Source: Candidatus Methylacidiphilales bacterium
Lineage (GTDB): Bacteria; Verrucomicrobiota; Verrucomicrobiia; Methylacidiphilales; JANWVL01
DNA length: 64,000 bases
NCBI GenBank assembly: GCA_025056655.1
Contig: JANWVL010000055.1
Span: 62,001 to 126,000 of the forward strand
Direction: 5' to 3'
The number at the start of each line of letters is the position of its first letter. The stretch's first letter is position 1. The translations under genes were made by a program, and so were the position numbers. The notes beneath the pieces were generated by a model, which saw nothing but the letters and a program-made list of their open reading frames with translations, was not told the DNA's origin and made no database searches. Below, in pieces: positions 11,897 to 57,582 of the stretch.

Positions 11897-12616
11897 TTAG
11901 GGCCGTAGCCGATTATAAGACACAATTGAGGGAGGTTCCGAAATTAAACTTAGAGATGGAGCTTCGGCTTCTGGATTGGAGAGTTTTGAATAATGATGTT
12001 GGGAGTATAGAGGGGTCTCATTCGAGATGAAATGCGTTGTGTAGTTATAGGAATCAGTCCAGTCATCCGATAAAATCATAAGTAAGAGGACTTGTGAGGA
12101 CCTTCTCTGATCAAGGGGTAATACTTCTGTCCGGGATGGAAGAGGCTCTTCATCTCCATATGGCATAGTTGAGAAGTGGGGTTGGCGCAGGGGATATCTT
12201 TTGTGTGCAGACTTTCTGTGGTTAGATGTTTTTTGCTTTATACTTGGATTTTCAAACTGTGTATTGTCTGATCTGATTGTAGGGAAGAAAAATTCCTCAG
12301 GCAGACTATCCCGCAGTGCCTCAATTTGACTTTGTGTATCTGATTCTTTTGTGGGAAGTTGACGATAACGGTTGAATGGGACTCGATCGGCTTTGCGTTG
12401 ATAAAATTCGCCATATCGCACGATTTGAGCCTCTTGCTTATAAGGGATCGAAGGGGAAGGGCTTATCAAATAAGTCTCTGAGGCGTATCCTGCTAAAGAT
12501 GAGCAGATGATGGTGAAAAAAATAGCCCAGACTTTTAGATAGCCTGGTGCTGAATGAGCAAGCAATTCTAGGATTAGATATTTAGCCTTTGAATAAAGTT
12601 TGTATAAAATATTCAT
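11897..12616 (-). CDS. Unknown secreted or membrane-anchored protein
   Basis: I do not recognise this protein. From ATG 12616 it has 239 residues; an upstream in-frame ATG at 12640 would add eight. A hydrophobic segment (KVWAIFFTIICSSLAGYA, about residues 28-45) looks like a late signal peptide or single membrane helix. The remainder is polar, rich in Ser, Pro, Arg and Gln, and low in predicted structure. It lies 101 nt upstream of leuD on the same strand, with an AT-rich divergent region behind it. No catalytic motif or repeat is apparent. It is probably real because the frame is open over 740 nt and has an export signal. Confidence 0.55.
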   Translation of the reverse strand: MNILYKLYSKAKYLILELLAHSAPGYLKVWAIFFTIICSSLAGYASETYLISPSPSIPYKQEAQIVRYGEFYQRKADRVPFNRYRQLPTKESDTQSQIEALRDSLPEEFFFPTIRSDNTQFENPSIKQKTSNHRKSAHKRYPLRQPHFSTMPYGDEEPLPSRTEVLPLDQRRSSQVLLLMILSDDWTDSYNYTTHFISNETPLYSQHHYSKLSNPEAEAPSLSLISEPPSIVSYNRLRP

Positions 12617-12640
12617 TATTGGTCTGTAATTTATATGCAA

Positions 12641-12907: not shown

Positions 12908-13789
12908 ATGTCAATTAAGGATTATTGGCAGTCGAGGCAAAAATTAGTGGATGAGGCGCTGGATCGATATTTGCCTAAGGAGAATGAGAAGCCGGAGACG
13001 TTACATCGGGCGATGCGTTACAGTTTGTTTGCTGGGGGGAAACGGCTTAGGCCTGTGTTGACTCTGGCGGCGTGTGAGGCTGTGGGAGGAGATTATCGTA
13101 GAGCGATGCCTCTTGCTTGCGCAGTGGAGTGTATTCATACTTATTCTTTGATCCATGATGATTTGCCTTGTATGGATGATGACGATTTTCGCCGTGGGAA
13201 ACCCACTAACCACAGAGTTTTCGGGGAAGGCGTGGCTGTGCTGGCTGGTGATGCGCTGCAGGCTTTGGCGTTTTACTTAATTAGTCAATCCAAAGCAGGA
13301 CGACGTTATGAACATCGAGCATATTTAGCTGAATTGGCATGGGCTGCGGGGAGTCATGCTCTGGTCGGTGGGCAGGTGGCAGACATGGAGGGAGAGAGGA
13401 AAAAGCTAAGTCTTGAGGAGCTGGAATTCATCCACCGGGGGAAAACGGCAGCCTTGATCTGTAGTAGCCTGAGACTAGGGGCGATGGCGGGTGACGCTGG
13501 GGAGGCTGAGTTAAGAGCAATCACTCGTTTCGGTCAAGCTGTGGGCTTAGCCTTTCAAGTAGTGGATGATATTCTGGACGTCACTCAGACGTCTGAAAAA
13601 CTCGGGAAGAGTGCTGGGAAAGATATTGCCGCTGAAAAATCGACTTATCCCGCCTTGCTCGGCTTAGAGGAGGCCAAGAAAGTTGCCGAACGCCTTACAA
13701 AAAAAGCCATCGATGCACTTAAGGTGCTTGGTCAGAAGGGTGAGAGGTTGAAAGAACTTGCAAATTTAATGTTGAAAAGGGAGAACTGA
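12908..13789 (+). CDS. ispA: Geranyl/farnesyl diphosphate synthase (IspA-type polyprenyl synthetase)
   Basis: Head-to-tail prenyl transferase that condenses isopentenyl diphosphate with allylic diphosphates. The 293 residues are normal for bacterial FPP synthase. The first aspartate-rich motif is DDLPCMDDDDFRRG (from residue 84) and the second is VVDDILD. GGKRLRPVL and the lysine-containing SAGKDIAAEKSTYP are also present. The two residues inserted in the first motif (DDxxxxD) are the bacterial type II FPP synthase pattern, so C15 product is likely; longer chain length cannot be excluded. No isoprenoid neighbours are present; a long non-coding stretch follows. Confidence 0.93.
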   Translation: MSIKDYWQSRQKLVDEALDRYLPKENEKPETLHRAMRYSLFAGGKRLRPVLTLAACEAVGGDYRRAMPLACAVECIHTYSLIHDDLPCMDDDDFRRGKPTNHRVFGEGVAVLAGDALQALAFYLISQSKAGRRYEHRAYLAELAWAAGSHALVGGQVADMEGERKKLSLEELEFIHRGKTAALICSSLRLGAMAGDAGEAELRAITRFGQAVGLAFQVVDDILDVTQTSEKLGKSAGKDIAAEKSTYPALLGLEEAKKVAERLTKKAIDALKVLGQKGERLKELANLMLKREN

Positions 13790-14253
13790 ATTGAGGGATT
13801 TATCGATGGATGTTATTAAAATTTTCCCATCAACGAGGAAATAATTTTACCGTTTAGGTTGGATAACTTGTAAAATCCTTTAAGAGAGGAGGGTAGATCG
13901 AAGAAAAAAAGCGATTTTGGGTTTTTGGCATGTTAAATGCTGCATTTTAGGGGAGGATGAGAGCAACTGAACTTCGCTCTGTAATCGATAGTCGTTAAGG
14001 TATGGTTTTGATAGTTCAGAAATTGGCTGGTGCGATTGTCCTCTTGGAATCATTTCGAGGGTGCTCGAAATTGGTATGGAGAAAAAATTGGTTTTGGGGT
14101 GGTTTTAGTCCTTCTCAAATTGGCTTTCTTGGACGCTCTGGAAATCTCCTCTGCTAGGCTCGCCCGCTGTCTGGTTCACCGGTAGTGGATCAGATGGCGG
14201 GCGTCAGTAAAATTGGTTGTGATTGGGGCAAGGTATGGGGTATATCGGCGGTT
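13790..14253 (+). other. 464-nt gene-free region with several strong hairpins; candidate structured RNA
   Basis: No credible ORF lies here. Plus-strand hairpins include AAATG-CTG-CATTT (near 13934), AGAGC/GCTCT around an 11-nt loop (near 13971-13991), ATTTCGAG-GGTG-CTCGAAAT (14052-14071) and a very strong 43-nt hairpin at 14161-14203. I find no tmRNA or RNase P RNA signature. It may be an uncharacterised small RNA or a long acpS leader. Confidence 0.4.
14161..14203 (+). ncRNA. 43-nt hairpin with a 19-bp stem upstream of acpS
   Basis: From CGCCCGCTGTCTG at 14161 to CAGATGGCGGGCG ending at 14203, all 19 positions pair around the loop CGGTA if G-U pairs are allowed (four of them). On the minus strand those four pairs become A-C mismatches, so the fold favours a plus-strand RNA. 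No U-run follows, so it is not a simple terminator. It overlaps an upstream GTG that could otherwise start acpS (14185). Confidence 0.5.
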
Positions 14254-14649
14254 ATGGATCAAATAGGAGTTCATCTTCGACATGGAATCGATATGGTGGA
14301 TATATCGCGTTTTAAAGCTTTGCTGTCGCGACATGGAGAAAAAGCCGTGAATCGTCTTTTTACCGATGGGGAGCGAGATTATTGTAAGCGTTTTTCTGGT
14401 CAGATGGCACAGCATTTTGCGGTGCGATTTGCAGCTAAAGAAGCCGTGTTGAAGGCTCTGGGCACGGGTTTGGGATTAGGTATGCGGTGGAGGGATGTTG
14501 AAATTCAGAGAGGAGAATCCGGTGAGCCAAGCGTGGTGCTTCATGGGCGGGTTAGAGAGGTGTTTGAGGGTTTGGGTTTATCTCGGGTGGTTGTATCGCT
14601 GACGCACACTGAGCATTCGGCTGTGGCTTCCGTGTTGTTGATGGGTTGA
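14254..14649 (+). CDS. acpS: Holo-[acyl-carrier-protein] synthase
   Basis: Transfers 4'-phosphopantetheine from CoA to the serine of acyl carrier protein. From ATG 14254 the protein has 131 residues, close to the usual 120-130. An in-frame GTG at 14185 would give 154, but it falls inside the strong hairpin at 14161-14203. Key motifs are HGIDMVDISRF (metal-binding Asp13) and FAAKEAVLKALGTG (metal-binding Glu), with the C-terminal VSLTHTEHSAVASV. The gene is convergent with sppA, 12 nt apart. No fatty-acid genes are adjacent. Function is secure from the two conserved motifs. Confidence 0.92.
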   Translation: MDQIGVHLRHGIDMVDISRFKALLSRHGEKAVNRLFTDGERDYCKRFSGQMAQHFAVRFAAKEAVLKALGTGLGLGMRWRDVEIQRGESGEPSVVLHGRVREVFEGLGLSRVVVSLTHTEHSAVASVLLMG

Positions 14650-24001: not shown

Positions 24002-24008
24002 GTGGAGA

Positions 24009-24099
24009 TGCCAGAGGCCGTAACAACTCAGAGCAAGTTACCGTTGCTTCCTTTCGGACCTGGCGGGGTTACCCTGTCTGGGTTCTACAACCTCTGGCA
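24009..24099 (-). ncRNA. ffs: Signal recognition particle RNA (small bacterial type)
   Basis: The minus strand carries the Ffh-binding core CCAGGTCCGAAAGGAAGCA, the hallmark of bacterial SRP RNA (E. coli has CAGGUCCGGAAGGAAGCAG). The ends form a perfect 9-bp stem, TGCCAGAGG at 24099-24091 with CCTCTGGCA at 24017-24009. The 91-nt length fits the 4.5S class without an Alu domain. A strong promoter precedes it with the correct spacing (24106-24134). Confidence 0.93.
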
Positions 24100-57510: not shown

Positions 57511-57582
57511 GCCTCGGTAGCTCAACGGTAGAGCAGATGACTCTTAATCATTAGGTTCTAGGTTCGAATCCTAGCCGGGGCA
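57511..57582 (+). tRNA. tRNA-Lys (anticodon CUU)
   Basis: A complete 72-nt cloverleaf. The acceptor stem is GCCTCGG/CCGGGGC and the D-arm GCTC-AACGGTA-GAGC. The anticodon arm is GATGA-CTCTTAA-TCATT, giving anticodon CTT. The T-arm is CTAGG-TTCGAAT-CCTAG. The 3' CCA is not encoded; after A57582 comes TTTTGTTTTT and then the hisH ATG. Confidence 0.96.

Follow-up and report, generated by a model that had tools for sequence, protein, structure and literature searches.

The ispA-acpS spacer

The window analysed here is a 64-kb stretch (G000:C55:62001-126000) of a draft genome of 2.44 Mb, which is divided into 178 contigs and is 96% complete. The region of interest is framed by two genes on the plus strand. 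The upstream neighbour, ispA, encodes a protein of the polyprenyl synthetase family (12908..13789; PF00348, E 1.2e-61), and the downstream neighbour, acpS, encodes a 4'-phosphopantetheinyl transferase (14254..14649; PF01648, E 5.7e-21). The 464 nt that separate them (13790..14253) contain no gene supported by ORF, Pfam or genome searches and are assigned to neither strand. An earlier note on this DNA had singled out the gap as long and gene-free. This holds true, as the median gap in the window is 20 nt in a mechanical gene layout, and the sole gap longer than 464 nt, at 383-1610, belongs to a sigma-70 gene extending past the window edge.

The gap consists of 29% G, 33% T, 25% A and 14% C. Its 51- and 57-aa ORFs, including a second 51-aa ORF at 14030-14182, have zero Pfam matches. 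When 61 genomes were searched, the 57-aa ORF matched itself alone. The 51-aa ORF at 14002-14154 gave one weak match in these genomes (G015, E 0.006), which carries two internal stops and was rejected. On the far side of ispA, a 247-aa ORF on the minus strand (11897-12640) without a Pfam match is followed by ispA and flanked on its other side by an ORF that we take, by eye from its translation, to be leuD-like.

For acpS, the best start is ATG 14254, and the alignment with homologues begins only near residue 9 of this short form. Two alternative in-frame starts, GTG 14185 and ATG 14194, are located inside a hairpin of the gap.

The heptamer AAATTGG occurs five times in the gap (14020, 14068, 14085, 14117 and 14210), out of nine plus-strand copies in the entire window. 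In a 254-kb sample, which comprises the window and a further 190 kb from ten stretches of the same genome, every other 464-nt stretch has at most two copies on one strand. Five copies of any non-overlapping 7-mer were seen in 4 of 5000 Markov shuffles, versus 24 of 1081 real 464-nt tiles. When the gap was aligned with itself, it did not clearly outscore shuffles: under two scorings, its score was reached by 14 of 60 and by 3 of 60 of them.

Folding of the spacer

The most prominent feature of the gap is a hairpin on the plus strand at 14161-14203, which begins 371 nt past the end of ispA and ends 50 nt before the acpS ATG. All 19 of its 19 consecutive pairs form without interruption, four of them being G-U, around a 5-nt loop, with a folding energy of -33.3 kcal/mol (z -7.9). 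None of 200 shuffles equals this value, and the 43-nt hairpin described in the earlier note is real. The minus strand reaches -21.6 kcal/mol (z -5.0), so the hairpin folds better on the strand of ispA and acpS. Within the 254-kb sample, it ranks first among the 12 rows of uninterrupted hairpins at -18 kcal/mol or lower on both strands. The second-strongest hairpin has -29.1 kcal/mol, and the best one in 12 Markov shuffles of the 254 kb (one strand) has -25.5 kcal/mol. The hairpin is single copy, as the genome contains no further copies at up to 3 mismatches. It is a real feature beyond chance, of an ordinary kind.

The earlier note had also envisaged nested structure across the whole gap, and here the folding results point elsewhere. 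The z-score of the whole gap is -3.7 to -3.8 on the plus strand and -3.0 to -3.3 on the minus strand, while a z of -3 or lower was seen in one of 70 genome segments of 464 nt drawn at random. Most of this signal stems from the one hairpin, because its removal leaves a plus-strand z of -1.4, and nesting throughout the gap, or an RNA folded over several hundred nt, is thus unsupported. Taken by itself, the segment 13790-14140 (351 nt) has a z of -2.3, a little stronger than the joined remainder, and 2 of 70 random pieces are at this value or lower. The perfect 8-bp hairpin at 14052-14071 on the plus strand, which the earlier note had likewise listed, is present, with a 4-nt loop. It is unremarkable: its z of -3.3 within its own 26 nt is one that hairpins picked from a long sequence often attain. 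Outside the 19-pair hairpin, the gap is probably ordinary spacer.

The four G-U pairs, which can form in plus-strand RNA only, had been interpreted as a sign of selection on a transcript. This argument is weak, because the gap is rich in G and T and poor in C. With its composition, a wobble-type mismatch would be G-U and not A-C at a probability of 0.73, and four of four at 0.29. In addition, both strands of the gap beat shuffles.

The hairpin could also be a palindrome at the DNA level without RNA function, for example the relic of a mobile element or the outcome of a chance local duplication and inversion. The expected frequency of four G-U pairs fits such an origin, as do the minus strand, which folds far better than its shuffles, the single copy and the absence of a detected homologue. 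We nevertheless consider it possible but somewhat unlikely, given that no second copy within 3 mismatches exists in the genome, a Y1 transposase is missing (PF01797 absent at E 0.001 from a 96% complete genome), no target-site duplication is visible in the flanks and the hairpin is well above shuffled sequence in strength.

REP elements are repetitive, and the single-copy hairpin differs in this respect from REP-type stabilisers. With one copy, and no PF01797 transposase in the genome, its assignment as a REP/RAYT element was rejected.

The gap was further compared with known RNA families by the Rfam covariance search that the earlier note had proposed. At gathering score, Rfam 15 identified just a tRNA (57511-57582) and a small SRP RNA (24006-24099, minus strand) in the whole window, and no family in the gap. 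At E values up to 10, the region 13700-14350 yielded nothing credible. The best match at the hairpin, with 16.1 bits, is to a miRNA family whose cut-off is 110, a score for which any long stem would do. 6S RNA (RF00013), which the earlier note had named as an identity that would overturn its own proposal, is encoded on another contig (G000:C110:129849-130027, 52.2 bits). The gap was rejected as a 6S RNA, as 13700-14350 has no match to this covariance model at E up to 10.

The length of the gap and its whole-gap z of -3.7 would suit a free-standing small RNA on the plus strand that ends at or after the hairpin, as the earlier note had suggested. We regard this as improbable. The folding signal comes mainly from one hairpin, whose stem is not followed by a U-tract, promoter-like and terminator-like matches in the gap are no higher than shuffle level, Rfam provides no match and the 97 relatives searched hold no convincing homologue. 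Our literature searches brought up no study of an acpS leader RNA, nor any of small RNAs in Methylacidiphilum.

Related genomes and the acpS start

The genomes returned by our searches include no other member of the same genus or family. In a DNA search of 60 genomes, our own included, the best outside match has an E value of 0.004 over 32 bases, which is chance level with this number of genomes. A covariance model of the hairpin (R1) scores 88.3 bits against itself and 24.9 bits against its own reverse strand, and in its own genome it finds this place only. Among 98 genomes, again with our own, nine others match at 15.7 to 22.4 bits. These matches, assessed as a set, were rejected as homologues, since the best E value of 0.004 per genome amounts to about 0.4 expected over all. 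In the 97 relatives, no convincing homologue was thus detected, nothing scoring above 22.4 bits. The exact hairpin pattern was not found in viral contigs, nor did a distant blastn search of plasmids give a match.

The gene arrangement is equally restricted. The acpS loci compared are the best 30 of 44 matches, own included. Each has as much as 1.5 kb of upstream sequence if its contig reaches that far; in L040 and L046 this stretch is much shorter. By tblastn, ispA was not detected in the 29 relatives' acpS loci. Conversely, acpS was not detected in 37 ispA loci of other genomes (L061 and L168 are apparently from the same genome, judging by identical identity and flank figures) or in 80 ispA loci from genome contigs, eight of which are shared with the 37. 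Among the loci examined, the ispA-acpS pair therefore occurs in this genome only.

These comparisons weigh on the idea, also raised in the earlier note, that the hairpin belongs to a structured leader of acpS. Transcription would then start within the gap, and the stem would affect translation or stability of the acpS message; it might do so by covering two alternative in-frame starts, GTG 14185 and ATG 14194. The stem does contain both of these starts and ends 50 nt before ATG 14254. Shine-Dalgarno-like motifs (GGAG, GAGG, AGGA or longer) precede just 3 of 33 mechanically chosen starts within 20 nt, a count that is lowered by the starts being uncurated, and with such scarcity a leader structure could matter. 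However, the likely start ATG 14254 is located outside the stem. In the relatives' 29 acpS loci, viewed up to 300 nt upstream, the best hairpins have -13.9 kcal/mol or are weaker, with one exception (L049, -26.4 kcal/mol), which is positioned 241-281 nt upstream, and three loci have no hairpin at all. A conserved acpS leader is thus not seen, because the upstream hairpins of the relatives are weak, distant or absent. Of the earlier proposal, the strong hairpin is borne out, and we judge a leader role to be possible but somewhat unlikely. A narrower version appears highly unlikely: in this case, the stem would be a lineage-specific regulatory element of the acpS message in a barely sampled family of the Methylacidiphilales, where it would hide GTG 14185 and ATG 14194 and select between two AcpS forms.

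Scarcity of Shine-Dalgarno motifs has precedent among Verrucomicrobia, for example in Akkermansia (PMC10783764). In the present genome, the full-length 16S rRNA (L197) retains CCTCC at its 3' end despite the few motifs. A second, partial 16S rRNA gene (G000:C23:61-816; L198, L199) has a 3' tail that differs from that of the full-length copy on contig 67, and contig 23 may be contamination.

A possible transcript boundary

The explanation that we tentatively favour, and which we hold to be plausible but short of probable, is that the hairpin forms a boundary element at the transcript level in the ispA-acpS spacer, acting either as an exonuclease block or as an RNase cut site. In this model, RNA transcribed through the spacer on the strand of the two genes would carry one strong stem-loop as a boundary. 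The stem-loop may block 3'-to-5' exonucleases once Rho has terminated transcription or the RNA has been cut. Alternatively, a double-strand-specific RNase may cut the stem-loop. Either way, the ispA transcript would be separated at its end from the message of acpS, which has its start codon 50 nt downstream of the stem.

The rank of the hairpin as the strongest uninterrupted one in the 254-kb sample favours this model, as does its better folding on the strand of both genes. Rho is encoded in the genome (PF07497, E 7.2e-29), and the stem lacks a U-tract: in the tail after it (TCAGTAAAATTG), 2 of the next 8 bases are T. A parallel exists in E. coli, where GC-rich hairpins without a U-tract are reported to mark 3' ends that are trimmed after Rho-dependent termination, with a C-rich and G-poor sequence downstream (PMC13289151). 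The present hairpin resembles these 3'-end stabilising hairpins in being strong, GC-rich and noncoding, in having no U-tract and in occurring alongside Rho. It differs from them in what follows the stem, which is G-rich and not C-rich. The 50 nt after the stem contain 19 G and 4 C, and hence are not rut-like. This argues against a Rho-trimmed route exactly as in E. coli, whereas cleavage of the stem by an RNase would still fit. Two further points speak against the boundary model in general. A position 371 nt past ispA and just 50 nt before acpS is an odd place for an ispA 3' end, and no relative examined shows the two genes in this arrangement.

Bacterial spacers are already known to contain single strong hairpins, and as matters stand the hairpin has little significance. 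It would gain weight only if close relatives proved to maintain the stem through compensatory substitutions, or if transcript mapping revealed control of acpS by it.

The hairpin might instead be an intrinsic terminator of atypical form, that is, one without a U-tract. Like intrinsic (Rho-independent) terminators in general, it has a GC-rich stem and a short loop and is located downstream of a gene, here ispA, but it differs from them in its missing U-tract. Among the 12 strong hairpin rows of the 254-kb sample, five have at least 4 T in the next 8 bases, compared with 2 here, which sets the hairpin apart from terminators with a U-tract in this genome. The stem went unreported in the terminator scan, and several other strong hairpins of the genome do carry U-rich tails. 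We therefore consider termination by this stem quite improbable. Three strong hairpins with U-tails, at L180:5449-5480 (minus strand), L176:18552-18583 (plus strand) and L179:7833-7862 (minus strand), are probably ordinary intrinsic terminators.
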